Shown: positions 114 to 13,769 of the stretch, in pieces
Layout: each line of letters opens with the position of its first letter
Numbering within the stretch: the stretch's first letter is position 1
Source: a bacterium 1XD21-70
GTDB lineage: Bacteria; Bacillota; Clostridia; Lachnospirales; Lachnospiraceae
DNA: 64,000 bases
Reading direction: 5' to 3'
Assembly: GCA_003669055.1 (NCBI GenBank)
Contig: RAYB01000011.1
Coordinates: 1 to 64,000, forward strand
The notes under the pieces: model-generated
What the model saw: only the letters and a program-made list of their open reading frames with translations
Databases searched by the model: none
Told to the model about the DNA's origin: nothing
Program-made: the position numbers and the translations under genes

Positions 114-278
114 TCAATCGTCCTGCTTACTGCAGATTGCCAGCCGGTGCTGGTACTTCTCCCGCGTGGCCAGCCCGCCGCGGATATGCCGCTCCGACTT
201 GTTCACATCCAATACGATCCTCGCCCTGGCTGCCAGGGACGGATTGATATGCTCCAGGCGATCTGTTACATCTTTATG
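114..278 (-). CDS. spoIIID: SpoIIID, C-terminal half (gene split by intervening element)
   Basis: This open stretch has no start codon of its own; TAG precedes it in frame inside the element. It encodes KDVTDRLEHINPSL, then LDVNKSERHIRGGLATREKY and a short tail, 53 codons to TGA at 114-116. This is the second half of SpoIIID, the mother-cell sporulation DNA-binding protein, including the basic C-terminal region needed for DNA binding. The missing start, with the recognition helix, is at 4304-4435. Fusing both halves at the CA of TACATA gives STVH-KDVTDRL in frame and a 91-residue protein, close to the usual length of about 90. While the element is present this half cannot be translated from its natural start. 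Confidence 0.93.
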   Translation of the reverse strand, partial: HKDVTDRLEHINPSLAARARIVLDVNKSERHIRGGLATREKYQHRLAICSKQDD

Positions 279-1809
279 TATGGTTGTCTATGATTAGAGC
301 GTTTTCATCCAAACCCAAATCGCCGAGCAAACGCAGGTAAATATCCACATTTCTGTCCTTGTCCACTTCGATTTTCTGAATAATCCGCTTTAACTGCTCA
401 TTACTCATATCACGGACAGAAGTAATGTCCTCAATGTTCTTGAATGTGCCTTTTATGATTCCCTCCAGTTGGTCGCCTTTGTCTAAATTGTACTGTACCA
501 GCTTCAAATCATTTTCCAGCCTCTCCATTTCCGCTTTCATGCCGCCGATTTTCTCATTCAGTTCTTCCCGGCTGATTAAATCGTCTGTATACATATCCAT
601 GTACTTCTGGCGGGTTTTTTTCAGTTTGGCAAGCTGGCTGTTTAATTCCCTTTCGTAATTCTCGTTATCATCCTTTGCCTTATAAATCTTTGTAAACTCC
701 TTTACCACATAGCTGATGATATTTTTCTTTCCTTTCAAAAGCCCGGCAAAGTATTCCTCCAACGCCTGAATCAGTTCGTCCTCATCCACTGTCACCGCAT
801 TGGGGCAGCTATTTGCACCCTTGCCGTTATGCCCGGAGCATACCCACCGGATGTAAGTATTCTTATAAGTGCGGACAGTGCGCCGGAATGACCAGCCGCA
901 TTCCTTGCACTTAATAAGCGTACTGAACAAATATTTATTGCTTTGCCGTTCATGTTTGACATGAAATGTGTCGTGCCGCCCATGCAGGATTTTTTGTGCC
1001 TTGTCAAACTGCTCCGGCTCTATGATCCGCAGATCGGGGCGGTCAGTAACGAACCACTCCGACTCGTCCTTTTCTGCCCTTGTACCTGTGAGAAAATCAG
1101 TAACCTCCTGTTTTCCATTGATGATTTTCCCGGTATACAGTTCATTGGTTAAAATACGGCAGACAGCGTTTTGGCTAAAGCTGCAATTCCGCTTTGTTTT
1201 CAACCCCCTCTCATTAAGCATATTCGCTATTTTTGCTGCACCGTATCCCTCATTCAAATACCATTCATAAATCTGCTTTACAATCTTTGCTTCTCCCTGA
1301 TTGATTGCAAGATTGAAATAATCGCCAATGGTCTTATCATATCCGTAAACGATATTTGGCACTCTGCCCTTTTCTGCGTTCATTTTCTTTCCGAACTTCA
1401 CTCGTTTGGACGTATTCGCACTTTCCTCTTGTGCCAACGCCCCGAAGATTGTCAGGACAAATTCGGACTGTCCTAAAACACCCATATTTGCAGTTAAAAA
1501 TGTGGTTTCTATCCCTAATGCCTTTAATGTACGGATACTTTGCAGAAGGTCTACGGTGTTACGGGCAAAGCGGGAAATATCTTTTACTACTACCATATCA
1601 AATAAACCCTGCTGTGCGTCACGCATAAGACGGAGAAATTCTTTACGGTTTTTAATTTTTGTACCGGAAATACCCTCATCTGCATATAATCTTACCAGGT
1701 TGTGACCGTTTTTTTCGGTATACTCGGTAAAAAACTTCTTTTGGGCTTCTAAGCTGTTAAGCTGGTCGGATTTGTCCGTGGAGACACGGCAGTAGGCAGC
1801 TATATTCAT
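274..1809 (-). CDS. Large serine recombinase (site-specific integrase/excisionase)
   Basis: The protein is 511 aa. The N-terminal resolvase domain (about 1-148) has the catalytic serine in YCRVSTD (Ser10), DEGISGT and the DISRFARN motif. A recombinase domain follows (about 150-260), then a zinc ribbon (Cys301, Cys304, Cys324, Cys335) and a coiled coil (about 375-440). All are expected for skin-type SpoIVCA-like recombinases, which exchange strands through a phosphoserine link at a central dinucleotide. ATG at 1809 is chosen because AAAGG lies about 10 nt upstream; an upstream TTG at 1836 lacks such a site. Its stop codon lies on the left attachment core, so in the excised circle the frame would read on for 18 residues. 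It is intact and codirectional with spoIIID, and is presumed to catalyse excision of 277-4324. Confidence 0.95.
   Translation of the reverse strand: MNIAAYCRVSTDKSDQLNSLEAQKKFFTEYTEKNGHNLVRLYADEGISGTKIKNRKEFLRLMRDAQQGLFDMVVVKDISRFARNTVDLLQSIRTLKALGIETTFLTANMGVLGQSEFVLTIFGALAQEESANTSKRVKFGKKMNAEKGRVPNIVYGYDKTIGDYFNLAINQGEAKIVKQIYEWYLNEGYGAAKIANMLNERGLKTKRNCSFSQNAVCRILTNELYTGKIINGKQEVTDFLTGTRAEKDESEWFVTDRPDLRIIEPEQFDKAQKILHGRHDTFHVKHERQSNKYLFSTLIKCKECGWSFRRTVRTYKNTYIRWVCSGHNGKGANSCPNAVTVDEDELIQALEEYFAGLLKGKKNIISYVVKEFTKIYKAKDDNENYERELNSQLAKLKKTRQKYMDMYTDDLISREELNEKIGGMKAEMERLENDLKLVQYNLDKGDQLEGIIKGTFKNIEDITSVRDMSNEQLKRIIQKIEVDKDRNVDIYLRLLGDLGLDENALIIDNHT
275..287. other. Left recombination junction of the spoIIID intervening element
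   Basis: The plus strand shows TATGTA (TACATA on minus) at 275-280, then TATGGTTGT at 279-287 inside the element. The same TACATA occurs at 4321-4326 and the inverted copy ACAACCATA at 4314-4322. The crossover dinucleotide is inferred as CA (minus strand, 277-278). The recombinase stop codon TAA (274-276) overlaps the site, so the stop is supplied by spoIIID sequence. Confidence 0.8.
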
Positions 1810-1855
1810 AAGCGGCAGCCTTTCTGTTATATTCAAAACGTTCTGTTACAACTAA

Positions 1856-1884
1856 ATTGTAATACCGGATCCGCCAATAGTCAA
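1856..1884 (-). promoter_or_regulatory. Sigma-A-type promoter for the recombinase
   Basis: On the minus strand TTGACT, a 17-bp spacer and TACAAT lie about 45 bp upstream of the recombinase ATG. The recombinase may therefore be transcribed independently of the sigma-E promoter of spoIIID. Confidence 0.6.
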
Positions 1885-1897
1885 TACTATCCAATCC

Positions 1898-3571
1898 TTA
1901 TCTCTTTACTGAATACCACTTCGCATACCGGTTCGTCCCCCTTGCCGCAATAACTCCATCTTTTTTCATTGCCTGCAAAAGATTCGATACCTTCTTTGAC
2001 TTCTGGTTCTCACTCAGCACCTCTGGCAGCGCTTTTTCCAATATCTCCATCAAATCCTGTTTTCCTGCTTCTCCCATCTTCTCCAATGCCTTTACAATCA
2101 ACTGTTTGCATATATCATCATCCAATCCCTTGTTCCGAATATAATCCGCCTTTTGCCCTACCGTATCTGCCACCTTAAACGACACAAACAAATTCGGATA
2201 TCTTCCCTCCACTAATCCCTGTTTTCTCAAAACCTTAAAGTCCTCTTTAGAAATCATCTCTTTCTTTTGCACTTTATCCAATAAAAATACTGTCTGTATA
2301 TCAAGTTCTCCATTAGAATACAGTAGCTGCGTATAATTTTTGTCCAGTATTTTTCCATACACCGTCACTTTAACCCTGTCAATAATATCCAGGTTATATG
2401 TGGGCAAAGGAAAACATTTATCTCTTTGAATCTGGTACATCATGGGGATTCCCATAGAATTTGTATCAATCATATACAGATTTACCATAGCATTGCACAA
2501 AAATATATTGCGGTAGTAAGGCGGCTTATACCCAGGTTCCAGCGCCTGCTCAATTGTCTCTGGGATAAATCCACCTTCATTGATAAAAACAAGCTTGTCC
2601 TCAAATTCTTCTACATTTATTTTTCCTCTTAACCGATAATCCTGATGTGCGATACAATTATTGAGAATCTCTTTAATCATTTCCGGCTCATACTGGTCCA
2701 CTTCGTCCGGAAACAGGGTTTGCTGCCCTGCTATGTAACGGTACTTCACATTCCGGATTCTGGAATATACCTTATCAACGGCCAATAGCAGCGGCATATC
2801 AAAATGCTCATAAGCCTTGACCGAATTGTCCGCATTATAAAGCGTCCATGTTATTCTTGGGATAAACCCGTCAAAAAAATAATGCGATTCGCTTTTTCCC
2901 AAAAGGAGCAGAGCTGTTCTTGTAATATTGCCCTTTATCGTAATCCCTGCCTTATTCAAAACCTCCATATCAGACAGTTTCTTCAAAATTTCCTGTGCCT
3001 TTTTGCGGTCACCCTGCCGTTTTGAAAACAGTTCTCTCGCCCGTTTCACGGCTTCCCTGTCTAAATCATCCAGTGTGGCACCCTCCACGGTTTCTTTTGA
3101 CCAGTCCATTCCAATCTGGCTTCTGATTAAGTCCACTTTATTCATTGGCAGCGGCGACACCGATTCATGCTCCCTGGCATAAGCGGCTCCCTGCCACGTA
3201 GTGGGAATCCCCCTGATTGCCGGTGGAACCTGAAATGCAATGACTCTGCACCCGTTCATAGACAACTCATAGATTTCCATAAAAGTCAGCCTCTCATTTG
3301 TACCATTCACAAGTTCCCTCTTCAGGTTTTGGAGCCCGCCCTGCTTTCTAAACTCTGTTCCCACAAACTCTTTGCTGTCAGATACTCCAAAAATCAGCCA
3401 TGCCTCCGGCAAACCGCGCAAATTTGCTTCATTGCTCAAAGCAGAAAAATATTTTCCTATGTCATTAAACGAAAAATTGCTTCTGGCTTCTTTGAATTCA
3501 GCCACTTCATTTTCAAATGAATCTATCATCGCTACGATCTTTTCTTTCAGCCTCGCATCTGTGTAAATCAT
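1898..3571 (-). CDS. AlbA_2 / GHKL-ATPase-like putative transcriptional regulator
   Basis: The protein is 557 aa. The N-terminus (about 5-130) resembles the AlbA_2 (Schlafen-like) domain, with ENEVAEFKEA and EAWLIFGVSDS. The centre resembles the ATP-binding C-terminal domain of such regulators (EILNNCIAHQDYR, INEGGF). The C-terminus looks like winged-helix DNA binding. Start ATG 3571 has AAAGGCGG upstream; an earlier in-frame codon at 3595 is weaker. This family occurs in mobile and defence loci but its biochemistry is poorly defined. It is the only intact cargo gene of the spoIIID element, 88 bp upstream of the recombinase, so control of excision or an accessory function is possible. Confidence 0.75.
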   Translation of the reverse strand: MIYTDARLKEKIVAMIDSFENEVAEFKEARSNFSFNDIGKYFSALSNEANLRGLPEAWLIFGVSDSKEFVGTEFRKQGGLQNLKRELVNGTNERLTFMEIYELSMNGCRVIAFQVPPAIRGIPTTWQGAAYAREHESVSPLPMNKVDLIRSQIGMDWSKETVEGATLDDLDREAVKRARELFSKRQGDRKKAQEILKKLSDMEVLNKAGITIKGNITRTALLLLGKSESHYFFDGFIPRITWTLYNADNSVKAYEHFDMPLLLAVDKVYSRIRNVKYRYIAGQQTLFPDEVDQYEPEMIKEILNNCIAHQDYRLRGKINVEEFEDKLVFINEGGFIPETIEQALEPGYKPPYYRNIFLCNAMVNLYMIDTNSMGIPMMYQIQRDKCFPLPTYNLDIIDRVKVTVYGKILDKNYTQLLYSNGELDIQTVFLLDKVQKKEMISKEDFKVLRKQGLVEGRYPNLFVSFKVADTVGQKADYIRNKGLDDDICKQLIVKALEKMGEAGKQDLMEILEKALPEVLSENQKSKKVSNLLQAMKKDGVIAARGTNRYAKWYSVKR

Positions 3572-3596
3572 ATTGCCATATCCGCCTTTCATCATC

Positions 3597-3620
3597 CTAT
3601 GACTAAATTCTATGACTAAA
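3597..3620. repeat. Two direct copies of CTATGACTAAA, period 13
   Basis: Copies at 3597-3607 and 3610-3620 lie directly upstream of the AlbA_2-type gene start, between its promoter and ribosome-binding site. Possible regulatory site or chance duplication. Confidence 0.35.
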
Positions 3621-3649
3621 CCAGGACTTCCTAGAACTAATTTGAAATT

Positions 3650-3678
3650 ATTTTACCCTAAGTTCAGTCATTGCGCAA
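3650..3678 (-). promoter_or_regulatory. Probable sigma-A promoter of the AlbA_2-type gene
   Basis: Minus strand TTGCGC, 17 bp, TAAAAT. The -10 is strong and the -35 moderate. It lies about 80 bp upstream of the chosen ATG. Confidence 0.45.
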
Positions 3679-3701
3679 TCGCCAACCACAAGAAAAGCCA
3701 C

Positions 3702-3882
3702 TCATTCTGAATGGCTCCCTGTTTCTGCTGCCTGAAACATCTTTCCTTTTACGCTTTCCTGCAATACCCTCTCGAATTTTTTTTGGTTTGCTTCAAGAAA
3801 TGCTTTCAGTATGTAGCTGGCAGCTTCCTCCACTGTATTAGGATTGTGAAAGCGGAAGTTTAACTTAACCTTATTAGCAATA
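3702..3882 (-). pseudogene. Decayed small conserved ORF (frameshift, lost start)
   Basis: The minus strand encodes IANKVKLNFRFHNP, then after one extra base NTVEEAASYILKAFLEANQK and on to a stop at 3702. Together these would be a protein of about 60 aa. An ATT sits where ATG is expected, 7 nt after GGGGGTGG. The single-base insertion creates an in-frame TAA in the HNP-NTV stretch. Small RFHNPN-containing proteins of this kind are, to my recollection, often found near recombinases of clostridial mobile elements; no function is known to me. It is a remnant of element cargo. Confidence 0.6.
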
Positions 3883-4073
3883 GTGAAACCACCCCCGTTT
3901 CATCTTACTGTCTTAGTTCTTTGTCCATAACTATGAGCAAGCGCAGAAAAATAGTCCTCATTTTTTTGCTTCGTTCATAAGCAATCTGAATCTCCCCATT
4001 TTCACCTGTGTTTTGGCCCCTCTTGCAGAGGGAAACATGTTCGGAAGATTTGAAAATGCCAAAAACGGACACA

Positions 4074-4106
4074 AAAACAGGAAACCTTTTCCTGGTTTCC
4101 TGTTTT
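4074..4106. terminator. Strong 13-bp hairpin inside the element, possible bidirectional terminator
   Basis: AAAACAGGAAACC and its exact complement flank a 7-nt loop, with T-runs after the stem on both strands. It interrupts the AraC-like remnant and lies between the sigma-E promoter of spoIIID and the rest of the element. It could block read-through into the cargo genes. Confidence 0.7.
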
Positions 4107-4109
4107 GGT

Positions 4110-4232
4110 ATGCCGTTCTATAGAACATTCTGCAATTTTTGAGATTTCTTCATGGTCAATTAATTCTTCTTTTCGTTGTAAATGATTCTCAACATAGCCA
4201 ATAATCACTTGCTGTTTTTCATTCCATTCCGT
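4110..4232 (-). pseudogene. AraC-family regulator fragment (N-terminus only)
   Basis: The frame reads EWNEKQQVIIGYVENHLQRK, then EELIDHEEISKIAECS, matching the start of an AraC-type HTH pair, and then loses homology at the hairpin. The natural start appears mutated: AAAGGA is followed 6 nt later by ACG (4230-4232) where ATG is expected. A GTG at 4206-4208 could still start a 68-aa peptide (4002-4208) whose second half is unrelated. Treated as a truncated remnant. Confidence 0.55.
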
Positions 4233-4303
4233 GTTGATTTCCTTTCGGCCTGATTCCTATTATCCTTATTCTATTATCCAAACTGTGTTTTTTATTTTTC
4301 GTT

Positions 4304-4435
4304 CTATTTCATCACAACCATATGTACCGTACTCTTGCTTATTCCAAACTTCTTCGCCGTCTGCCGCACCGTCGCATTGTGGTCTATAATGTAATTGGCA
4401 ATGGCCACCGCCCGCTCTTCGATATAATCCTTCAT
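4304..4435 (-). CDS. spoIIID: SpoIIID, N-terminal half (gene split by intervening element)
   Basis: ATG at 4435, preceded by AAGGG 7 nt upstream, begins MKDYIEERAVAIANYIIDHN, then ATVRQTAKKFGISKSTVH, the helix-turn-helix of SpoIIID. After His38 the sequence enters the element and adds MVVMK before TAG. As it stands it would give a 43-aa peptide with the HTH but without the basic C-terminal region. The remainder is at 114-275. SpoIIID is a sigma-E-dependent mother-cell regulator that shapes the switch to sigma-K. The upstream sigma-E-like promoter (4463-4491) fits that role. Confidence 0.93.
   Translation of the reverse strand: MKDYIEERAVAIANYIIDHNATVRQTAKKFGISKSTVHMVVMK
4314..4326. other. 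Right recombination junction of the spoIIID intervening element
   Basis: ACAACCATA (4314-4322) lies inside the element and TATGTA (4321-4326) spans the boundary with spoIIID. Together with 275-287 these define the host/element borders. The inferred CA crossover on the minus strand is at 4323-4324. Confidence 0.8.
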
Positions 4436-4462
4436 GGTTAAACCCTTGAGAATGTTTTTACC

Positions 4463-4491
4463 ATCATATGAAAAAACAAAGAAGAATATGC
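4463..4491 (-). promoter_or_regulatory. Sigma-E-type sporulation promoter of spoIIID
   Basis: On the minus strand GCATATT (4485-4491) matches the sigma-E -35 KMATATT fully. A 14-bp spacer is followed by CATATGAT (4463-4470), which matches six of eight bases of CATACAAT. Location 28 bp upstream of the spoIIID ATG and the known sigma-E control of spoIIID both support it. Confidence 0.7.
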
Positions 4492-4526
4492 CGTTATTCC
4501 ACTGCCTGCCAAGGCCTTTTTCTCTT

Positions 4527-5372
4527 TTATTTCCTTACGGCCTGGAACTTTTGCACGGTATTATGTATGGCTCTCTCCACCGGGATCCTCTCCATGCTGG
4601 AAGCGCCCACAAACCCTACTGCACAGGTCTCCTTAAAGATCCTCTCAAACGCCTGTGCATCCTCAATCGCGCCTCCGTGGCAAAGCGTAATGATATCCCT
4701 GTTCTCAGAAAGCCCGGCTGACAGAACCTCCTCGGTGATTTTAACCGATTCATCAATCGTTGCCGCACAGGTGGCGCCAATGTCACCGCCCGATGTAAGC
4801 CCGGCATGCGCAGCCAGGATATCCACCCCCTGCTGGACCATGATGCGGGCTTCCCTGGGTGTGTATACATACCCAATGGTCAGATACCCCATATCATGGG
4901 CCAGCTTCATCATGGCTGCCTCCCTCTCATAGCCCAGGCCGACACTTTCTATCTCCCTTCTGAATTTCCCTTCAAATTTCCCCACGGTCGGATAGTTAAT
5001 AATCCCCGAATATCCGGTTTCTGCAAGGCTATAGAGGAATGCCTCCATATCCCTGGTGGGGTCACACCCGAAAACACCTGCTGCCACAGGCATATCGTGG
5101 GTAACCGGAAGGATAAGGTCGCGCCCCAGCTTGTATACAATCCCATTGGCATCCCCCACCGGGAGGTTGCCAAGGATCGAACTGTGCCCATTCATACGAA
5201 AATACCCTGAATTATATACCACTGCCATATCGGCGCCTGCTTTTTCCAGAACCCTCCCCACAATGCCTACCCCGGCACCGCTGACAACCACCGGTATGCC
5301 CATCCCGATTTTCTCACGCATCCTTTGGAGCGTCACTTCACGCCCTACCCTGCACTGTACCTGCCGCATCAT
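4527..5372 (-). CDS. PEP-hydrolase-like TIM-barrel protein
   Basis: The protein is 281 aa and resembles the phosphoenolpyruvate hydrolase-like/TIM-barrel signal-transduction family. Visible motifs include VVVSGAGVGIVGRVLEKAGAD, MNGHSSILGNLPVGDAN, GYSGIINYPTVGKFEGKF, VDILAAHAGLTSGGDIGA and ITLCHGGAIEDAQAF. The true substrate in bacteria is not established. ATG at 5372 is chosen for GGAGGG 7 nt upstream. It overlaps the stop of the UPF0261 gene (ATGATG), implying translational coupling. These two families are commonly neighbours, and fused in some fungi. Last gene of a four-gene operon with a TAXI TRAP transporter, so it probably acts on the imported compound or a derivative. Confidence 0.85.
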   Translation of the reverse strand: MMRQVQCRVGREVTLQRMREKIGMGIPVVVSGAGVGIVGRVLEKAGADMAVVYNSGYFRMNGHSSILGNLPVGDANGIVYKLGRDLILPVTHDMPVAAGVFGCDPTRDMEAFLYSLAETGYSGIINYPTVGKFEGKFRREIESVGLGYEREAAMMKLAHDMGYLTIGYVYTPREARIMVQQGVDILAAHAGLTSGGDIGATCAATIDESVKITEEVLSAGLSENRDIITLCHGGAIEDAQAFERIFKETCAVGFVGASSMERIPVERAIHNTVQKFQAVRK

Positions 5373-6628
5373 GATTTGCCCTCCATTATCCTTCCATATG
5401 AAACTTCCTGCCAATTCAGCATTTTAATCAGATTCTTAACCAAAAGTTCTGCAAATTCCGGGTCGTTAATGTGATGCTCATCCGTGATCACCGGGACATT
5501 CTTCGGCATGCTCCGCTCCAGTTCATTGATAAACGCTGCGTCAGTCTGCCGGTTGTAAAAAACATTACCCTCCTTATCCACCTCAGAAAACCCTTTTGTG
5601 GGCACTATAATTTTTGTGTTTCCCCTGCTGTCTTGCAGCCGTTCTGCAAAGACGCGGGCAAGGCTCCTCACCTCTGCCTCGTTAGACCTCAGCTTCAAAA
5701 GCGAAGTGTTGTTATGGTAATACATAAGGTGATCTTTTTGCTCCGGCCTTAACATTTCTGCCGGCCCGATGTTAATCATATCGGTTGCCCCAGGCACCAC
5801 AATATATGGGATATTCTTTTTTACAGCCGTCCTTAGCCGCTTTGGCCCTACCACATAAGCCCCGCCTGCAATCTCATCGATCAGTTCCGTGGTTGTGACA
5901 TCGAGCACACCGCAGAAAAAATTTTCCTCTATCATTTTTTCCATGATTTTCCCGCCGGATACCCCCCTTGCATGGAAGATCAGTATCTCATAACCATAAT
6001 CCTCCAGCAATTCCTGGCACCGCTGCACGCAAGGGGTTGTAACACCAAAGCATGTGATAGCGATACATTTTTTCTTGTTGGGGGTAAGCTTCGGCATCCT
6101 GGCCATGGCATTGATGATGCGGGCAGCCTCCCTTAAGATATGGGTGCTCATAAAATTCAGGCTCTGGATATCCACCACAGAATTAATCAGCAAAATATCC
6201 TGCCCTTGTACATAAGGAAGCGTATTGCCGCTTGCCATAGTCCCCACAACTACTTTGGGGATCCCTATCGGCAGCTGCTGCATCGCCCCGGTGGCAATGG
6301 TAGTCCCCCCGCTGCCTCCCAGGGAAATCACGCCGTCCATTTTCTTTTCCTTTAAAAGCTTCTGGAGGATGACATTCAGCCCGGTGACCATATATTTTGA
6401 GGCTTCTGACCGCAGATTTGTGCCCAGCACCGTGGCAATCGGCACCTTGGCCGCGTCTGCTACCTGGGTTTGCGTATAGGAAATAGGGTAGTTTTTATTG
6501 CTGTGCCTCAAAGAGACATCAATCAGAAAAGCATGGTTGCCGCAGGCCTCGATCTGTTCTTTCAGGTAAACTGCCTCTTCCCCTTTAGTGTCCATAGTAG
6601 CACAGATATAAATGTTTTTCTTTTCCAT
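5369..6628 (-). CDS. Tm-1-like ATP-binding domain protein (UPF0261)
   Basis: The protein is 419 aa. The N-terminus (ICATMDTKGEEAVYLKEQ) and ISLGGSGGTTIATGAMQQLP are typical of UPF0261, whose plant relative Tm-1 binds ATP. A second domain with VVPGATDMINIGP follows. ATG at 6628 has GAGGG 8 nt upstream; an earlier in-frame codon at 6646 is less likely. The gene lies 73 bp after the TRAP permease and overlaps the TIM-barrel gene. Function unknown; the pairing suggests a two-component enzyme acting on the transported substrate. Confidence 0.85.
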   Translation of the reverse strand: MEKKNIYICATMDTKGEEAVYLKEQIEACGNHAFLIDVSLRHSNKNYPISYTQTQVADAAKVPIATVLGTNLRSEASKYMVTGLNVILQKLLKEKKMDGVISLGGSGGTTIATGAMQQLPIGIPKVVVGTMASGNTLPYVQGQDILLINSVVDIQSLNFMSTHILREAARIINAMARMPKLTPNKKKCIAITCFGVTTPCVQRCQELLEDYGYEILIFHARGVSGGKIMEKMIEENFFCGVLDVTTTELIDEIAGGAYVVGPKRLRTAVKKNIPYIVVPGATDMINIGPAEMLRPEQKDHLMYYHNNTSLLKLRSNEAEVRSLARVFAERLQDSRGNTKIIVPTKGFSEVDKEGNVFYNRQTDAAFINELERSMPKNVPVITDEHHINDPEFAELLVKNLIKMLNWQEVSYGRIMEGKS

Positions 6629-6701
6629 AATTATGCCCTCTCGCATTGCTGCCTCTATGCCGCTGGTTCCCTCTTATTTTCCCACGCGGCGGTTCCACAC
6701 A

Positions 6702-8621
6702 TTATTTTTGCCTTTTCAAGCGTATGGCATGCATCAGGATGATGGCCACAGCAAGGATAATCCCCACAAAATCCAGGACATATACCGGCATCACACAGCA
6801 GGCAGCTGCCGCAATGGCGGCAAGCCTTTCCGGCACCGTAAGCTTATCCAGGAAAAATCCCTCACAGGCAATGATGAACGTAAACAGGAAAATAACGATC
6901 ATCATCACAGCCCAAGCCCACCCTCCCACGGTTCCCAAGCCGAACAATATCGACGGCCGGTAAAGGAACATAAAAGGCAGGACGAATCCGGCAATAGCCA
7001 GCCGCAGCGACGTAATGCACGTCTTCATAAAATCCGCTTTTGCCATGCCTGATGCCACCAGGCAGCCTATGGCCACAGGCGGGGTCAGCGCACTCATCTC
7101 CCCGAAATAAAACACAAAGAAATGCGCTGCCAGCAGGGGAACTCCAAAAGAAGTCAATGCAGGCGCCCCCAAAAGGGCGCAGAGCACATAGGCCGGGGCT
7201 GCCGGCATGCCCATGCCAAAAACAACACAGCTGATGGCTACCATGACCCCCAAAAGGAAAAGGGAACTTCCGGCGGAAGCGACAACAAACTGCGAAATCT
7301 TAGACGGAAGCCCTGTGGCAGTAAGGATCTGGACCACAACCCCTGTCGCTGCCAGTACAATGGAGATCGCCGCGCAGCTTTTGGCTCCGCCCGCAAAGCC
7401 GCCCACCAGCTTTCTGGCAAACAGCTGCAAAGAGTCTTTCACAGGGCGCCCCTTCCTAAATTGCTTGCAAAAGCCAACCAGCATCATAGCGATAATGGCA
7501 TAGAAAAGCGACATCTGGGAGGAGAGGTTTTGAGCCATAAGGATTACCAGCACAATAATCGGGATGATAAACACGAAAAACTCTGTCGCCGCACTGCGAA
7601 ATTGCGGCAGGCTATCATCATCCACCCTTTCATCCCCCAGCTTGATGGCCTTGATATAGACGGAAAGCGCAATTCCCAGGAAATAAAGGACGGCCGGGGT
7701 GGCTCCTAGGATGACAATCTTAATATAAGGCGTGTTTGTCCAGCTGGCTATGATAAATGCTGCCGCATTCATTACCGGAGGAAGTATGGCTCCGCCGGTA
7801 GATGCCGTCGCTTCTGCCGCTGCCGCGAATTCCGGCGGGTATCCCCGTTTTTTCATCAGGGGGATGGAAACCGTCCCGGTCATCGAGATATTAGCAGCCA
7901 CCTGGCCTGTCACAGACCCGATAAGCCCGGAAGCGATCACTGCCACCTGCGCCCCGCCGGAACGCACCTTCCCGGATGCAGACATTGCCACATTCATGAT
8001 GCACTCAAGCGCCCCAAAGGAGTCCAGCATCCCGCCAAACACCGAAAACAGGATAATGGTATTCGCTGTTATCTGCCCCATCATGCCGAAAACACCGGTA
8101 AAATTCGTAGTAGAATAAGTGATCAGCCTTTTTACGGAAAGCCCTCCGTGATACAAAAAGCCCGGCAGCCTGGAGCCAAAGTAACCGTATAACAAGAAAA
8201 GCACCACAATCATTGGTATCACTTTCCCCCAGGCCATATAAGTGGCAATCAGGAATACAGCAAGGTAAACCGCCCCGGATACAATCTGCCCTGCCGAGTA
8301 GTTGCCCATTGCCTGCAGGTACTGGTCGTGATGTGCATAGATATATATGGTGTCGGCCAGCATGATAGCAGCAAGAGCCAAACAGACGACATTTTTCAGC
8401 AGTTGGCCGCGGGCAGCCTCCCTATCTGCATCCACCCTGATTCTGCCGAAAAATAAGATCGCAAAACACCCTAAATAGTGGATCATGATATGCCGGTATG
8501 CGCTTGTCAGCATATATCTCGCATATATGAAATGATAGATGCCCAAAATGGCAGCAATAGCAGTAACCGCAGCCCCAACTGCCCTCTGGGTGCCCTCTTT
8601 ACTTTTTCGCATATTTCCCAT
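6702..8621 (-). CDS. TRAP transporter fused permease subunit (DctQ-DctM fusion)
   Basis: The protein is 639 aa, highly hydrophobic with many membrane segments. The N-terminal part is a small DctQ-like region. The body has hallmarks of the fused TRAP permease family: GSVTGQVAANISMTGTVSIP, PEFAAAAEATASTGGAILPP and FGMGMPAAPAYVLCALLG. It uses a Na+ or H+ gradient to import a solute delivered by the TAXI protein encoded 28 bp upstream. Start ATG follows GGGAGG. The substrate is unknown; fused TAXI systems often move carboxylates or amino acids. Confidence 0.93.
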   Translation of the reverse strand: MGNMRKSKEGTQRAVGAAVTAIAAILGIYHFIYARYMLTSAYRHIMIHYLGCFAILFFGRIRVDADREAARGQLLKNVVCLALAAIMLADTIYIYAHHDQYLQAMGNYSAGQIVSGAVYLAVFLIATYMAWGKVIPMIVVLFLLYGYFGSRLPGFLYHGGLSVKRLITYSTTNFTGVFGMMGQITANTIILFSVFGGMLDSFGALECIMNVAMSASGKVRSGGAQVAVIASGLIGSVTGQVAANISMTGTVSIPLMKKRGYPPEFAAAAEATASTGGAILPPVMNAAAFIIASWTNTPYIKIVILGATPAVLYFLGIALSVYIKAIKLGDERVDDDSLPQFRSAATEFFVFIIPIIVLVILMAQNLSSQMSLFYAIIAMMLVGFCKQFRKGRPVKDSLQLFARKLVGGFAGGAKSCAAISIVLAATGVVVQILTATGLPSKISQFVVASAGSSLFLLGVMVAISCVVFGMGMPAAPAYVLCALLGAPALTSFGVPLLAAHFFVFYFGEMSALTPPVAIGCLVASGMAKADFMKTCITSLRLAIAGFVLPFMFLYRPSILFGLGTVGGWAWAVMMIVIFLFTFIIACEGFFLDKLTVPERLAAIAAAACCVMPVYVLDFVGIILAVAIILMHAIRLKRQK

Positions 8622-8649
8622 CTATACCTCCCGCCTTCCCTCCGCTCCT

Positions 8650-9732
8650 TTATTCCCCGTAAACAGTAAAACGTTCGTCCCACAGCCCGGCCTCTTTCAG
8701 GGCACGCGCCGCTCCCGGGTGGAAGGGAACCGAAGGCACGCAGACGCTGGTCACATAATCCTTAAATACTGCAAGATCCTGCGAGATATTGCCCAGTGCC
8801 TCCACATTGTCCAGGCATGTCTTTACAAATTGATAAACCGCTTCTTCCTCCACATCCGCACCGAATACGCACACACCGGAATTACGGGCAGCCAGCCTCA
8901 CCTCGCCTTCCGGAATAGAGGGGTCATTTTGGGACGTCATAGCCTGGTATGCGATGCCGTCATTGACCTCCCCAAGCTGTTCTGCCACCTCTTCCGAGAC
9001 GGGGAGGATCACGATATCACGTGTGGTGCAGAGTTCGATGATGCCAGACGCGGGCAAGCCGTTCGCCCATGAGCCGCAGGCAGCATCCACCCGGCCGTCC
9101 TTAAGCGCCTCCCATGCATCATTCCACCCAAAATATTCGATATTGACTTTTCCTGTCAGGCCGTAACAGTCAAAAAGCACCTTCATAACCTCTGCAGAAG
9201 CCGACCCCTGCTGCGGAAATGCCACTGTCCTGCCTTCTAAATCTTCATAGGAACCAATGCCTTTATCCTTTGTGGTGATCACCGGGAGCATCCAGGAAAC
9301 AAAACCAAAGCCCTGTGTCATGGATTCCACCGGAACCGGCTCTGCAAACGGCTCCTCCCCATTGAGCGCCTGGATCAGGTTGATGGTTCCCGCATACCCG
9401 CCTTCCAGTTCACCGCTGTGGATTAGGTTGATAATTTCAACTGCCCCTGTAGTGACAACTGTAGATGTCTTTAATGCTGTATTTTGGTTGACAACCGCTG
9501 ACATGGCCTCCAATGCCGTATTGGCCGTCCCTCCTACTGCATCGGTGCCAAGCCTGAGAATATAACCGTCTACATTCGCTGCTTCCTGTCCCTGTGCCGG
9601 CTGGGAAGACGATGCATCTGCCTTCGTATCCGCTGCCGCGCTTACCGGCGTTTTTGTTTTTGTATCCGCTCCACATGACATACAAGACACCGCCATCATG
9701 GCGCCCAAAAGCATCACCAGCATCTTTTTCAT
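8650..9732 (-). CDS. TAXI-family TRAP solute-binding lipoprotein
   Basis: The protein is 360 aa. The signal peptide ends in a lipobox (VSCMSCGAD), so it is a membrane-anchored extracellular binding protein. A low-complexity Ala/Ser/Gln stretch leads into the TAXI domain: LRLGTDAVGGTANTALEAMS, IINLIHSGELEGGYAGTINL, and GRTVAFPQQGSASAEVMKVL. First gene of the operon, behind a sigma-A promoter (9788-9816). Start ATG follows GGAGGG by 8 nt. Confidence 0.93.
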   Translation of the reverse strand: MKKMLVMLLGAMMAVSCMSCGADTKTKTPVSAAADTKADASSSQPAQGQEAANVDGYILRLGTDAVGGTANTALEAMSAVVNQNTALKTSTVVTTGAVEIINLIHSGELEGGYAGTINLIQALNGEEPFAEPVPVESMTQGFGFVSWMLPVITTKDKGIGSYEDLEGRTVAFPQQGSASAEVMKVLFDCYGLTGKVNIEYFGWNDAWEALKDGRVDAACGSWANGLPASGIIELCTTRDIVILPVSEEVAEQLGEVNDGIAYQAMTSQNDPSIPEGEVRLAARNSGVCVFGADVEEEAVYQFVKTCLDNVEALGNISQDLAVFKDYVTSVCVPSVPFHPGAARALKEAGLWDERFTVYGE

Positions 9733-9787
9733 TATCCTGGCCCTCCTTATTATCCGCCTTTTACAGGCGTGTATTTATTGTACTTCT

Positions 9788-9816
9788 ATTTTACACACCC
9801 CCATCCTACAGTTCAA
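9788..9816 (-). promoter_or_regulatory. Sigma-A promoter of the TAXI TRAP operon
   Basis: Minus strand TTGAAC, 17 bp, TAAAAT, about 55 bp upstream of the TAXI ATG. A TGCAATATGCAT motif lies directly upstream of the -35. Confidence 0.7.
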
Positions 9817-9824
9817 GGCATTTT

Positions 9825-9920
9825 TGCAATATGCATATATTTTCTCTTTTTTATCCGTTATTTTGCACATTATATTAAACATTTTCACGTCGCTCCTTCC
9901 AATTTTATTGCAATATTGCA
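9825..9920. promoter_or_regulatory. Repeated TGCAATAT sites upstream of the TAXI operon promoter
   Basis: TGCAATATTGCA, a perfect 12-bp palindrome, is at 9909-9920; TGCAATATGCAT is at 9825-9836; a TTGCAC half-site is near 9864. Their position upstream of the -35 suggests activator or repressor binding. The rest of the 9733-10148 gap holds an AT-rich stretch, a GCCTGCC/GGCAGGC hairpin (9964-9994) and the terminator at 10032-10064; no gene is seen. Confidence 0.45.
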
Positions 9921-10031
9921 CATTTTATTTCTCAATTTTTTGTATATATTTTTCACAGTCTCTGCCTGCCATGCACCTTCGCCCAAGGGCAGGCCAGCCT
10001 TTTGCGGTGTTATAACAACCACTATAGCAGC

Positions 10032-10064
10032 AAAAAAAGACGGCTCATTATGAACCGTCTTTTT
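10032..10064 (-). terminator. Terminator of the leuB-DUF1015 operon
   Basis: GACGG...CCGTC with further TCAT/ATGA pairing in the stem. Seven T follow on the minus strand and five on the plus strand. It lies 85 bp after the DUF1015 stop codon. Confidence 0.85.
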
Positions 10065-10148
10065 CCCGTCCCTGATCAAAATCCCTTTTCCCGAAAAGCT
10101 AAAACCCAATCCGCGCTTTCTGCCTCCTGAGGCTTGTATGGAAATCCC

Positions 10149-11504
10149 CTAAGACAGCTTATGGATAAACAGCCCGCTCCGCAGCTTCGGTTCAAACCAT
10201 GTCGATTTCGGCGGCATCAGAAGCCCGGCATCTGCCACTGAGAACAATTCCCCAATCGAGGTCGGGTACATGGCAAAAGCCACGGCTCCCTCGCCGCCGT
10301 CCACCAGACGTTCCAGTTCCCCAAGCCCCCGTATGCCGCCCACGAACTGAATCCGCACATCTGTCCGGGGATCCCCGATCCCCAGCACCGGCGCCAGCAA
10401 ATTGTCCTGTAGCAAAGATACATCCAGCCCCTTCACCGGATCGTCCGTCAAATACTCCGGAAGCACCTTAAGCCCATACCACTGCCCTGCCAGGTACATC
10501 CCGATATGGTGGCGCTCTGTCGGCTGGCCCGCATGCGCCCCGCTGCCGGGTCCTTTTTGCAGTTCCTTTTGCCTGCCTGTTTCATGAGTTTCCCCGCCTG
10601 CCTCCGCTGCCAGGCTTGTAATCTCAAACCGCTTGGACACTTCTTTGAGGAATCCTTCCGCTGTCCTGCCGTTTAGATCCTTCACCACCCGGTTGTACGG
10701 CATAATCAGAAGCTGGTCATCCGGAAACAGCACGGACAGGAAGTACTGAAACGGCTCTTCCCCCGTATATCCCGGATTTTCTGCCCTCCGCTTCAACCCT
10801 ACTTTCACCGCCGAAGCCGCCCGGTGATGGCCGTCTGCGATATAGACCGACGCCATCTGGAGGAACCGTCCCCGGATCCGGCTTGTCCAGCTTTCTTTCC
10901 TCTCCTTGGCTGTCCCGGCGCCTGTATCTGCCTCCCCGGCCTCCGCCGCCTTCCACACCCGGTGCCGGATCCCGTCCTCCGCGACAAAGTCATATAGCGC
11001 CTCCTGGCTGCACACCTCGGCCACGACCCGGTTCAGTTCCTCATCCGAGCGGTACGCCAGGAAAATCGGCCCTGTATGGGAATCCGTCACATCCACATGG
11101 CAGATCCGGTCCTGCTCCTTATCCTCACGGGTATTCTCATGCTTTTTGATCACACCGCTGATATAATCCTCCACTGCGGCACAGGCAACAATCCCGGTCT
11201 GGCTGCGCCCATCCATAGTCAGTTCATACACATAATAGCATTCTGTCTCATCCGGGACCAAAATCCCCTCTTTCTGCCACTGCCCCAACAGTTCCTTTGC
11301 CTTCGCATACACTCTCGGGTCGTGCAGGTCTACCTCATCCGGAAATTGTGTCTCTGCCCTGTCCACCGCCAAAAATGACATCGGGTTCTTCTCAACTTCC
11401 TTTTTTGCTTCCTGCCGGTTGTAAACGTCATAAGGAAGTGCCGCCACTTTTGACGCCACTTCCTTATTCGGACGGATACACCGAAATGGTCTTATCTCCG
11501 CCAT
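10149..11504 (-). CDS. DUF1015 family protein
   Basis: The protein is 451 aa. It starts MAEIRPFRCIRPNKEVASKV, then ALPYDVYNRQEA, typical of DUF1015. YIADGHHRAASAVKVG is the conserved ADGHHR motif, and ALLM-type C-terminal features (GLLMPPKSTWFEPKLRSGLF) follow. No biochemical role is established. Last gene of the operon, 19 bp after serA, with AAAGGAG before its ATG. DUF1015 genes often adjoin serA and serC, so a serine-metabolism role is likely; since no serB is present it is a candidate for the missing phosphatase step, but this is inference. The ADGHHR region is also reminiscent of ParB-like SerK enzymes. Confidence 0.9.
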   Translation of the reverse strand: MAEIRPFRCIRPNKEVASKVAALPYDVYNRQEAKKEVEKNPMSFLAVDRAETQFPDEVDLHDPRVYAKAKELLGQWQKEGILVPDETECYYVYELTMDGRSQTGIVACAAVEDYISGVIKKHENTREDKEQDRICHVDVTDSHTGPIFLAYRSDEELNRVVAEVCSQEALYDFVAEDGIRHRVWKAAEAGEADTGAGTAKERKESWTSRIRGRFLQMASVYIADGHHRAASAVKVGLKRRAENPGYTGEEPFQYFLSVLFPDDQLLIMPYNRVVKDLNGRTAEGFLKEVSKRFEITSLAAEAGGETHETGRQKELQKGPGSGAHAGQPTERHHIGMYLAGQWYGLKVLPEYLTDDPVKGLDVSLLQDNLLAPVLGIGDPRTDVRIQFVGGIRGLGELERLVDGGEGAVAFAMYPTSIGELFSVADAGLLMPPKSTWFEPKLRSGLFIHKLS

Positions 11505-11523
11505 ATCTCTCTCCTTTTAGGCC

Positions 11524-12687
11524 TTACTGGATCACCCGCACACGCAGGATCCCTTCAATCGCTGACAGCTTCCCTAGCGTCTCCCCGTCCGGCTGCTTAT
11601 CCAGGTCCATCAGCGTATATGCAAACTTCTCCCGGCTCTTGTTGGTCATATCGGAGATATTGATCCCCGCAGATGCCATCGCACCGGTCACCTGCCCGAT
11701 CATGTTCGGCACATTCAGATGCATCACTGCCACACGGCTCTTTGTCTTGCACACACCCATATCACAGGACGGATAATTGACGGAGTTGCGGATGTTGCCG
11801 TTCTCCAGGTAATCCATCATCTCCATCACTGCCATCTTGGCACAGTTATCTTCCGACTCTTCGGTAGACGCGCCCAGATGGGGGATCACGATCACATTCT
11901 GCATGTTGACTGCCTTGGGGTTCGGGAAGTCGGTCACATATTTCCTCACCTTGCCGGAAGCCAGTGCCGCTGCCATGTCGTCGTCGTTCACCAGCAGGTC
12001 CCTCGCAAAGTTCAGCACCACTACGCCATCCTTCATCATAGCAATGGTCTCCTGGTTGATCATGCCTCTGGTTCCATCCAGAAGCGGCACGTGCACCGTG
12101 ATAAAATCACATTCCTGATAAATGGTATCCACACTGGTGATATGCTTCACATCCCTGGAAAGCATCCAGGCCGCATTCACGGAAATATACGGGTCATAGC
12201 CATAGACCTCCATCCCCAGTGCTGCGGCGGCGTTTGCCACCTCGGCACCGATGGCGCCAAGGCCGATCACGCCCAGCTTCTTCCCCTTGATCTCGCCGCC
12301 TGCGAATGCCTTTTTGCTCTTCTCTACGGTCTTGGAAATGTTCTCGTCACCCTTGTTGTCCTGGCACCAGGCAATACCGCCGATAATATCACGGCTTGCC
12401 AGCAGCATCCCGGCCAGCACCAGTTCCTTCACGCCGTTGGCATTGGCACCCGGGGTGTTGAACACCACGATACCGGCCTTGGCACAGTCCTCCAGCGGGA
12501 TATTGTTAACACCGGCTCCTGCTCTGGCAACCGCCTGCAGGGAATCGGAAAACTCCATCTCATGCAGGGAAGCGCTCCGCACCAGGATGCCCTCCGCCTC
12601 GTTGATATCCTCGGTCAGTTTGTAATCCTCAGTCAAAAAACCAAGGCCGTATTTGGAAATTGCGTTTAAACAATGTATGGTTTTCAT
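11524..12687 (-). CDS. serA: D-3-phosphoglycerate dehydrogenase
   Basis: The protein is 387 aa and oxidises 3-phosphoglycerate with NAD+ to 3-phosphohydroxypyruvate, the first step of serine synthesis. The Rossmann motif is GVIGLGAIGAEVANAAAALG. Active-site elements are VVLNFARDLLVND (Arg) and VIPHLGASTEESEDN (His). A C-terminal ACT domain (about 315-387) suggests effector binding. The form is the short one, without the intervening domain of long SerA proteins. Its ATG overlaps the serC stop codon, so translation is probably coupled. Confidence 0.96.
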   Translation of the reverse strand: MKTIHCLNAISKYGLGFLTEDYKLTEDINEAEGILVRSASLHEMEFSDSLQAVARAGAGVNNIPLEDCAKAGIVVFNTPGANANGVKELVLAGMLLASRDIIGGIAWCQDNKGDENISKTVEKSKKAFAGGEIKGKKLGVIGLGAIGAEVANAAAALGMEVYGYDPYISVNAAWMLSRDVKHITSVDTIYQECDFITVHVPLLDGTRGMINQETIAMMKDGVVVLNFARDLLVNDDDMAAALASGKVRKYVTDFPNPKAVNMQNVIVIPHLGASTEESEDNCAKMAVMEMMDYLENGNIRNSVNYPSCDMGVCKTKSRVAVMHLNVPNMIGQVTGAMASAGINISDMTNKSREKFAYTLMDLDKQPDGETLGKLSAIEGILRVRVIQ

Positions 12688-13769
12688 GCCTGGTGTGCCT
12701 CCTCAAATTTCTTCATAAACTCTACCAGTTTCTCCACGCCCTCGATCGGCATCGCATTGTAGATGCTGGCGCGCATGCCGCCTACGGTCCGGTGGCCTTT
12801 CAGGTTCACAAAGCCTGCCGCGGCAGCCTCCTTGATGAACAATGCATCCAAATCGGCATCCCCGGTCACAAACGGGACATTCATCAGAGAACGGTCCTCC
12901 TTCACTACAGTCCCCTTGAACAGTTTGCTTCCGTCCAGGAAATCATAAAGGATCTTTGCCTTTTTCTCATTGTATTCCTTCATTGCAGCCAGACCGCCCT
13001 TTGCCTTCAGCCACTTGAATACCTTCCCGCAGATGTAGATGCCGTAAGCCGGAGGTGTGTTGTACAAGGACTTGGCATCCACATGGGTCTTGTACTGGCA
13101 CATGGTAGGCGTCCCCTCCAGCACATCCTCCGTGACCAGATCCTCCCGGATAATCACAATCACCACGCCGGCCGGGCCGATGTTCTTCTGCACGCCGCCA
13201 TAAATCACACCATATTTGGACACATCCACCGGCTCTGAAAGGAAGCAGGAGGAGACATCCGCCACCAGGGTCTTGCCCTTGGTATTCGGCAGGGTCTTGA
13301 ATTTGGTGCCGTAAATCGTATTGTTCTCACAGATATACACATAGTCCGCATCATCGTCAATCGGCAGGTCGGAACAGTCCGGGATATAGCTGAAGGTCTT
13401 GTCATCACTGGAGGCTACGGCCACAGCCTTGCCGTACTTCTGCGCTTCCTTAAATGCCTTCTTCGCCCATTGGCCGGTGATAATATAATCTGCTACCTTA
13501 TTCTTCATCAGGTTCTGCGGGATCATCGAAAACTGCAGGTGTGCGCCTCCCTGTAAGAACAGCACCTTGTAATTGTCCGGGATATCCATCAGTTCCCGCA
13601 AATCAGCCTCTGCCTCCTGGATGATCGTCTCAAAAGCCTTGGAACGGTGGCTCATCTCCATCACGGACATACCGGTGCCCTTGTAATCCAGCATTTCCTC
13701 CGCCGCTTCCCTTAAGACCTCCTCCGGCAGCACCGCCGGACCCGCCGAAAAGTTATACACTCTTCCCAT
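12684..13769 (-). CDS. serC: Phosphoserine aminotransferase
   Basis: The protein is 361 aa and PLP-dependent, converting phosphohydroxypyruvate and glutamate to phosphoserine. It begins RVYNFSAGPAVLPEEVL, the family signature. The PLP lysine is in GGVQKNIGPAG. VGGMRASIYNAMP near the C-terminus binds substrate phosphate in the family. ATG follows GGAGG by 10 nt. It lies 54 bp after ilvB and overlaps serA, linking serine to branched-chain amino acid synthesis in one transcript. Confidence 0.96.
   Translation of the reverse strand: MGRVYNFSAGPAVLPEEVLREAAEEMLDYKGTGMSVMEMSHRSKAFETIIQEAEADLRELMDIPDNYKVLFLQGGAHLQFSMIPQNLMKNKVADYIITGQWAKKAFKEAQKYGKAVAVASSDDKTFSYIPDCSDLPIDDDADYVYICENNTIYGTKFKTLPNTKGKTLVADVSSCFLSEPVDVSKYGVIYGGVQKNIGPAGVVIVIIREDLVTEDVLEGTPTMCQYKTHVDAKSLYNTPPAYGIYICGKVFKWLKAKGGLAAMKEYNEKKAKILYDFLDGSKLFKGTVVKEDRSLMNVPFVTGDADLDALFIKEAAAAGFVNLKGHRTVGGMRASIYNAMPIEGVEKLVEFMKKFEEAHQA

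Follow-up and report, generated by a model that had tools for sequence, protein, structure and literature searches.

The window analyzed here, a stretch of 64,000 nucleotides at the start of contig RAYB01000011.1 of the Lachnospiraceae bacterium 1XD21-70 (GCA_003669055.1), carries the sporulation gene spoIIID in two halves, with an element encoding a large serine recombinase (LSR) lying between them. Codons 1–38 of SpoIIID are found at 4435–4322 and codons 39–91 with the stop codon at 275–114, both on the minus strand, and the intervening element measures 4,046 bp from crossover to crossover. The sequence TACATA (TATGTA on the plus strand) is common to both junctions (4321–4326 and 275–280), with the crossover dinucleotide CA at 4324/4323 and 278/277. 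In-silico joining of the halves gives a 91-codon SpoIIID that is interrupted by no stop. An earlier note on this DNA had claimed a split of spoIIID by about 4.05 kb with a serine recombinase (the LSR at 274–1836), as well as restoration of an in-frame, 91-residue SpoIIID by joining at TACATA; both claims are confirmed, and joining likewise gives an open, full SpoIIID in all of the 32 loci in which both halves are available. A second, intact spoIIID, which according to the same note would refute its interpretation, is absent from the strain's own genome assembly (4.31 Mb, 137 contigs, 96.7% complete, 3.34% contamination), where a PF12116 profile search matches the two halves alone. From the 5′ half inwards, the gene order is small unassigned open reading frames (ORFs), ORF X, an SLFN_AlbA_2/HATPase_c_4 protein, and the LSR. 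The features of the locus, all on the minus strand, are as follows:

4463–4491, minus strand: sigma-E-like promoter of spoIIID, GCATATT (4491–4485), 14-base spacer, CATATGAT (4470–4463)
4322–4435, minus strand: spoIIID 5′ half, codons 1–38 (PF12116 1–54, E-value 6 × 10−17), running on to a truncated 43-aa ORF that ends at 4304
4300–4346, minus strand: left junction, crossover CA at 4324/4323 within TACATA
3927–3956, minus strand: sigma-E-like promoter of X, GACTATT (3956–3950), 14-base spacer, CATAGTTAT (3935–3927), scoring 12 of 12 consensus points
3702–3881, minus strand: ORF X, candidate recombination directionality factor (RDF), 59 codons and a stop if ATT at 3881 is the start
1898–3595, minus strand: SLFN_AlbA_2/HATPase_c_4 cargo protein, 565 aa (PF04326, PF13749)
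1839–1884, minus strand: LSR promoter region, TTGACT (1884–1879), 17-base spacer, TACAAT (1861–1856)
1852–1839, minus strand: half-site GTTGTAACAGAACG in the LSR promoter region, resembling the arms of the attachment (att) sites
274–1836, minus strand: LSR, 520 aa from TTG at 1836, with a conserved ATG at 1809 (PF00239, PF07508, PF13408)
255–301, minus strand: right junction, crossover CA at 278/277 within TACATA, containing the LSR stop codon
114–275, minus strand: spoIIID 3′ half, codons 39–91 and stop (PF12116 32–80, E-value 1.5 × 10−20)

The split is not confined to this strain. Within the genus, 4 of 24 genomes have partial spoIIID matches only, while a full match, that is, the uninterrupted gene for which the earlier note had proposed a search of relatives, is present in the other 20. 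Of 397 genomes sampled evenly across the family, 241 exceeded the PF12116 cut-off; 29 of these gave nothing but partial matches, and 27 (about 11% of the 241) were found to have a split spoIIID. The junction of 23 of these genomes is of the type seen in the window (type A), including G078 and G291, which carry divergent LSRs (42–46% identity), and G193, in which no LSR match was found in the 10.5 kb beside the 3′ half. In the remaining four genomes (type B), the break lies two codons later and the att arms differ; G369 is assigned here by its att sequence only, and in the other three (G099, G155, G194; loci L081, L089, L100) three LSR-like stretches with palindromic att arms of their own were observed beside the 3′ half. 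Type B is a second, unrelated insertion class that has converged on spoIIID. G138 was rejected as a split because an assembly break falls inside the gene, while G375 was assigned to neither type; both are outside the 27, though still included among the 32 "partial" genomes of the SpoIVA, SigK and X counts given below. The same interruption is found in the single-contig genomes G254, G469 and G472. Partial matches only were also found in 6 of the 18 genomes above the cut-off in the genus of G051 (two of them single-contig; in one of the six, G482, the 5′ half stands alone at a contig end), and the G051 contig equals locus L147 from Blautia sp. An81. An interruption at this codon, with CA as the core, recurs across many genera, so neither chance nor a single faulty assembly can account for the split.

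Among named genomes, the best 80 of 489 LSR relatives were examined, and 77 of these loci hold the 3′ half of spoIIID: 74 at most a few hundred bases away from the LSR, two at 2.4 kb (L116 and L125), and one at 7 kb (L112). One of the three loci lacking it, L149, ends at the LSR. The other two, L107 and L108 (Christensenella sp. Marseille-P2438), carry an LSR of the same clade and X inserted outside spoIIID, in genomes where spoIIID is intact or missing, and represent secondary insertion sites. When 50 named genomes were searched, 47 had split pieces only (45 both halves, two the 3′ half only); of the remaining three, one has an intact copy and the LSR elsewhere, one has no spoIIID, and one metagenome-assembled genome (G458) has both split pieces and an intact copy. 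The latter was rejected as an excised allele, as its sequence differs throughout and looks like that of another species. The 3′ half is open in 105 of 106 loci, the remaining one lying at a contig end. The record names of the LSR relatives include Lachnospiraceae, Oscillospiraceae and Ruminococcaceae, and no LSR match was found in plasmids. Schaedlerella arabinosiphila DSM 106076, Sporofaciens musculi WCA-9-b2 and Blautia sp. An81 are examples of cultured commensals in which spoIIID is split.

Brought together, the ends of the window element form an attP palindrome, ACAACCATA-CA-TATGGTTGT, around the CA crossover. The comparison of att sites covered 30 of the 32 two-half loci (L063 was left out for an alignment gap, and L112 because its LSR lies away from the 3′ half); CA occupies an identical position in both junctions of all 30, and the reconstructed attP consensus is ACCGTTCtAATTAgTgACAACCATA-CA-TATGGTtGTAACAAAATAGAACGGT. 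The attP arms are symmetrical at a mean of 15.9 of 24 positions and the restored host site at 7.5, against 6 expected by chance, so the anatomy is that of a serine-integrase site. Viral contigs L183–L185 also have an undivided attP-like palindrome next to the LSR, and L186 has a less perfect one (read by eye). As L183–L185 represent one phage from three samples (contigs of 50–119 kb, 99.995–100% identical over the compared DNA), the LSR and X adjoin an intact attP in two distinct viral contigs carrying phage genes; between them, L183–L186 encode DNA polymerase, PhoH, anaerobic ribonucleotide reductase, amidase or endolysin, and tail proteins. No such site was seen beside the LSR in the other three viral relatives (L187–L189; LSRs 44–48% identical), and attP of the window type was found neither in the viral contigs nor in the 397 assemblies. 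MT838016, filed as a phage, was rejected as a free circle, because the spoIIID 3′ half follows its LSR.

The LSR of the window has the Resolvase, Recombinase and Zn_ribbon_recom domains that place it among the large serine recombinases, and its stop codon sits within the att core (TACATAA), an ending shared by 15 of 18 aligned LSRs. It falls short of the NCBIfam equivalog cut-off for the SCC cassette recombinases (CcrA/B/C; CcrB, 165.3 bits vs. 900); its predicted structure (mean predicted local distance difference test score, pLDDT, 72) was not used. A sigma-A-like site was found upstream of the LSR in 53 of 81 loci with a loose pattern and no shuffle control, while the general sigma-E pattern was found there in none of the 81. 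In 51 of the 81 loci, the same region contains the half-site GTAACNGA, which resembles the att arms and spoIIID codons 41–44; we would guess that the LSR represses itself through it.

The protein encoded by ORF X, which the earlier note had overlooked, is a candidate RDF, likely the control gene of the element, and a strong candidate for its developmental trigger. In all, 90 loci contain it, five of which are duplicates; 69 of the best 80 named LSR loci are among them, and in several of the 11 X-less ones the sequence is cut short. By genome, X accompanies 20 of 32 partial spoIIID genes (one of them, in G099, by a weak match), none of 24 intact ones, and none of the 13 genomes without spoIIID. 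It co-varies with the LSR (r = 0.60, or 0.58 with host distance held; 72 loci). X is 42–76 aa long from the first conserved residue in all loci but one, is characterized by the sequence KxKLNYRFHNPNxxExTADYILKILIEANxxKVExAI, and in a few copies (L150, L160) lies on the strand opposite to the LSR. Searches of Pfam, NCBIfam and PHROGs gave no family beyond chance-level matches, and comparison with solved structures gave only weak, unrelated matches (best E-value, 0.025); the structure model has two helices (pLDDT 91–96 over residues 11–40; predicted template modeling score, 0.45). In 13 of the 90 loci there is no ATG, GTG or TTG within 12 codons upstream of X. At the window locus (3881, minus strand) and in L058, L062, L075, L112, L115, L120, L124 and L126, the only start codon available is ATT or ATC, preceded by a strong ribosome-binding site; this may slow translation of X.

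Upstream of X, a consensus read from the same sequences, GACTATT-N14-CATAGTTAT, was matched with at least 9 of 12 points in 50 of 83 loci (after removal of duplicates and of two short stretches), compared to 3.2 in 100 dinucleotide-shuffled sets (standard deviation 1.6, maximum 8); 48 of these 50 matches lie 45–66 bases ahead of the first conserved codon. The general sigma-E pattern, which was fixed beforehand on spoIIID promoters, matched in 14 of the 83 loci vs. 0.6 in mononucleotide shuffles (maximum 3). The 5′ half of spoIIID also retains its own sigma-E-like promoter, a pattern of the GCATATT-N14-CATATGAT type, which was detected ahead of 30 of 52 split copies and 10 of 22 intact ones.

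SpoIVA is present in 32 of 32 partial-spoIIID genomes, 24 of 24 intact ones, and only 3 of 13 lacking spoIIID. A near-full-length match to the SigK model, in most cases below the model cut-off, was found in 28 of the 32; in G000, G244 and G368 the model matched two separate pieces, and no SigK match was found in G193 (79% complete). In the intact-spoIIID genomes G003 and G020, sigK is in two pieces as well, and the two splits are thus not tied to each other. The own genome of 1XD21-70 has sigK in two pieces on two contigs, C79:3225–3509 and C43:123284–123634 (L190, L191). No LSR was found in the 36 kb of C43 around the 3′ piece; an LSR 80 kb away on C43 is 63% identical to that of the G244 sigK element. 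The name Sporofaciens, borne by a split strain, presumably refers to spore formation, of which we found no description. According to passages of PMC12888040, spoIIID is among the genes that differ between one sporulating and one non-sporulating strain of Anaerostipes hadrus.

In the mother cell, SpoIIID links sigma-E to sigma-K. Based on the above, the interpretation that we favor, with a probability of roughly 0.78, is that a mobile LSR element resides in codon 38 of spoIIID and is excised in the mother cell with X as the RDF, after which SpoIIID is made. The element has integrated site-specifically at this codon by CA crossover within TACATA; the split gene, the att sites, the in-frame repair, the LSR–X pair and its recurrence across genera can be read directly from the sequences. 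In growing cells, the LSR would be expressed from its sigma-A-type promoter and be unable to excise the element alone, so that the latter should be stable. During sporulation, X would act as the directionality factor, the LSR would recombine attL with attR, and the element would leave as a circle, with spoIIID whole again behind its own sigma-E promoter and SpoIIID then able to drive the mother-cell program. The forespore would keep the element, which would in this way pass through the spore. Since SpoIIID would not yet be available when X acts, the X promoter is expected to depend on sigma-E and not on SpoIIID, unlike that of CD1234 of Clostridioides difficile, and the regulatory loop would have to be simpler than in the C. 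difficile skin element.

In that element, according to the parts of PMC5025042 available, the LSR CD1231 is expressed from a sigma-A promoter, while CD1234 (72 aa), controlled by sigma-E and SpoIIID, acts as the RDF. The two systems have in common an LSR-bearing element in a mother-cell regulator (sigK in C. difficile) and an LSR with a sigma-A or sigma-A-like promoter, and the small RDF gene under sporulation control has a putative counterpart here in X. The target spoIIID acts earlier than sigK, and the trigger for its element would have to work independently of SpoIIID. Identity between the window LSR and that of the G244 sigK element is only 27% and extends over just part of the window protein. 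The skin-like interpretation of the earlier note is partly supported: it agrees with the absence of a second spoIIID from the assembly, the in-frame repair, the att anatomy, the retention of SpoIVA and the sigma-E-like promoter on the partner gene, while excision, its timing and the earlier checkpoint are inferred. The element is not a private skin. With its insertion site in spoIIID it is not a sigK element proper; a split mother-cell gene, its own recombinase, and attL and attR with a common core and inverted repeats place it among the sporulation gene-intervening elements, and it belongs to a horizontally moving family dedicated to spoIIID. Elements of this kind are described, in excerpts of PMC4191935, PMC5595907 and PMC10747680, in sigK, spsM, spoVFB, spoVR, gerE and yabG. 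The gin element in gerE of Bacillus cereus ATCC 10987 similarly lies in a small regulator gene, has no phage genes, and is excised by an LSR (GirC) with an RDF (GirX), but it interrupts a late gene and is described in one strain (PMC5595907, in part), whereas the spoIIID family spans many genera and phages. SP-beta in spsM, vfbin in spoVFB, vrin in spoVR and yin in yabG also lie within mother-cell sporulation genes (sections of PMC4191935 and PMC10747680), none of which is spoIIID. The LSR families treated in PMC10083194 likewise include diverse LSRs converging on one conserved coding site, e.g., a prolyl isomerase gene; spoIIID is absent from its main text, and the passages concerned do not deal with developmental excision. 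No description of a split spoIIID was found in the portions of the open-licence PubMed Central literature that were covered.

These elements move horizontally. In the printed cross-genus pairs, LSRs are 72–89% identical while SpoIVA proteins are 50–69% identical, and in 15 Lachnospiraceae (without G078 and G291, whose LSRs are divergent) LSR distances show no relation to those of SpoIVA (Mantel r = 0.08, p = 0.28), which does not support vertical inheritance as a general rule in this family; LSR distances do correlate with those of the spoIIID 3′ half over 72 loci (r = 0.30, p = 0.0002). Between the window and G004 of the same genus, synonymous divergence (dS) is 0.54 for the LSR and saturated for the 3′ half. 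The only independent pair of loci with a shared insertion is L116/L125, in which flanks and element are colinear. L067/L140, L075/L123 and L060/L147 were rejected as the same sequence twice, and L127/L132 as passing the filter only in broken pieces at ~72% identity. The spoIIID halves of L116/L125 differ by 13 synonymous and no nonsynonymous changes over 79 codons; since neutral change would be mostly nonsynonymous, this pattern speaks for a working joined protein. Element sizes range from 3.5 to about 75 kb, with cargo such as a xanthine/uracil permease (L061), a MobA/MobL relaxase with RepA_N (L064), and AbiL-like genes (L109). The family is one of horizontally moving cassettes, mobilizable elements and phages dedicated to spoIIID.

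An ordinary mobile element, for which spoIIID is merely an attB that is conserved and dispensable for growth, and which leaves its host with lost or crippled sporulation and no developmental excision, would agree with this horizontal movement (the unrelated LSR and SpoIVA distances, the contrast in dS between the window and G004, and the single shared insertion) and with the intact spoIIID with a leftover 5′ half in G013 and G015, as if an interruption had been repaired. Such passive insertion is nevertheless unlikely, given that SpoIVA is retained in 32 of 32 genomes and a near-full-length SigK match in 28, that the 3′ half is open wherever it does not run into a contig end, and that the one shared insertion has changed at synonymous sites exclusively; moreover, a sigma-E-like promoter on X would serve no purpose. 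Random excision in a fraction of growing cells, with only cured cells sporulating and no control by sporulation, has a precedent in yin of Clostridium botulinum, reported in part of PMC10747680 as excised at all culture time points, and it would suit the vegetative look of the LSR promoter; we regard it as highly improbable in view of the sigma-E-like promoter on X and the lack of an attP circle among the 397 assemblies, which derive from growing cells or metagenomes. The draft state of the assembly, with its 137 contigs and 3.34% contamination, and a 3′ half lying 114 bp from the contig start might suggest an artefact or contamination, but independent assemblies, three of them single-contig, have the same site and CA core, by which this is refuted for the family and practically negligible for the window.

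Several observations weigh against developmental excision with X as the RDF. Purifying selection on the split gene is seen in the single pair L116/L125, and most insertions look recent and independent, as a passive insertion hot spot would also give. No excised attP circle was found in the 397 family assemblies. The X promoter falls under the threshold in 33 of 83 loci, including L186 and Sporofaciens (L104), and its consensus was scored on the sequences it came from. Badly decayed spoIIID halves would escape these searches. Finally, with its sigK in two pieces, 1XD21-70 may depend on two excisions for sporulation, or it may be unable to sporulate.

A broader interpretation, which we also favor but with less confidence, is that an integrase family of gut-Clostridia phages, mobilizable elements and small cassettes has specialized on spoIIID with a sigma-E-controlled excision factor, resulting in an irreversible mother-cell rearrangement between sigma-E and SpoIIID in about a tenth of spoIIID-bearing Lachnospiraceae, and perhaps in two serial rearrangements in one mother cell in G000, G244 and G368, where sigK is divided as well. 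In the excerpts cited, developmental excision concerns sigK or other genes, and each case is confined to a small number of strains. In the present case, a single integrase family is paired with a single early regulator in gut commensals of many different genera. Among the sporulation gene-intervening elements, it appears to represent a new variant that is mobile, widespread and located in an earlier regulator. If this is true, sporulation, and hence transmission, of many gut bacteria would depend on a mobile element, gene-presence surveys would wrongly score split species as lacking spoIIID, and phages could confine their excision to the mother cell, which will die anyway, and still persist in the spore. 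It also becomes possible to test whether insertions of this kind behave as courteous parasites or as regulators of the host, and the loci offer many LSR, att and RDF candidates as tools.

Some further features of individual loci were observed. The SLFN_AlbA_2 protein of the window has a 94% identical counterpart in L058. In L069 (G368), Mrp-type Na+/H+ antiporter genes lie between the two spoIIID halves (3430–12870); excision would therefore deprive the mother cell of these genes. G450 (L217) has three tandem extra 5′-half pieces of spoIIID with the promoter region, G129 (L072) has a degenerate extra 5′ half, and the leftover 5′ halves of G015 (L073) and G013 (L074) lie upstream of the intact gene; these extra 5′ halves are possible scars of serial insertion and repair.

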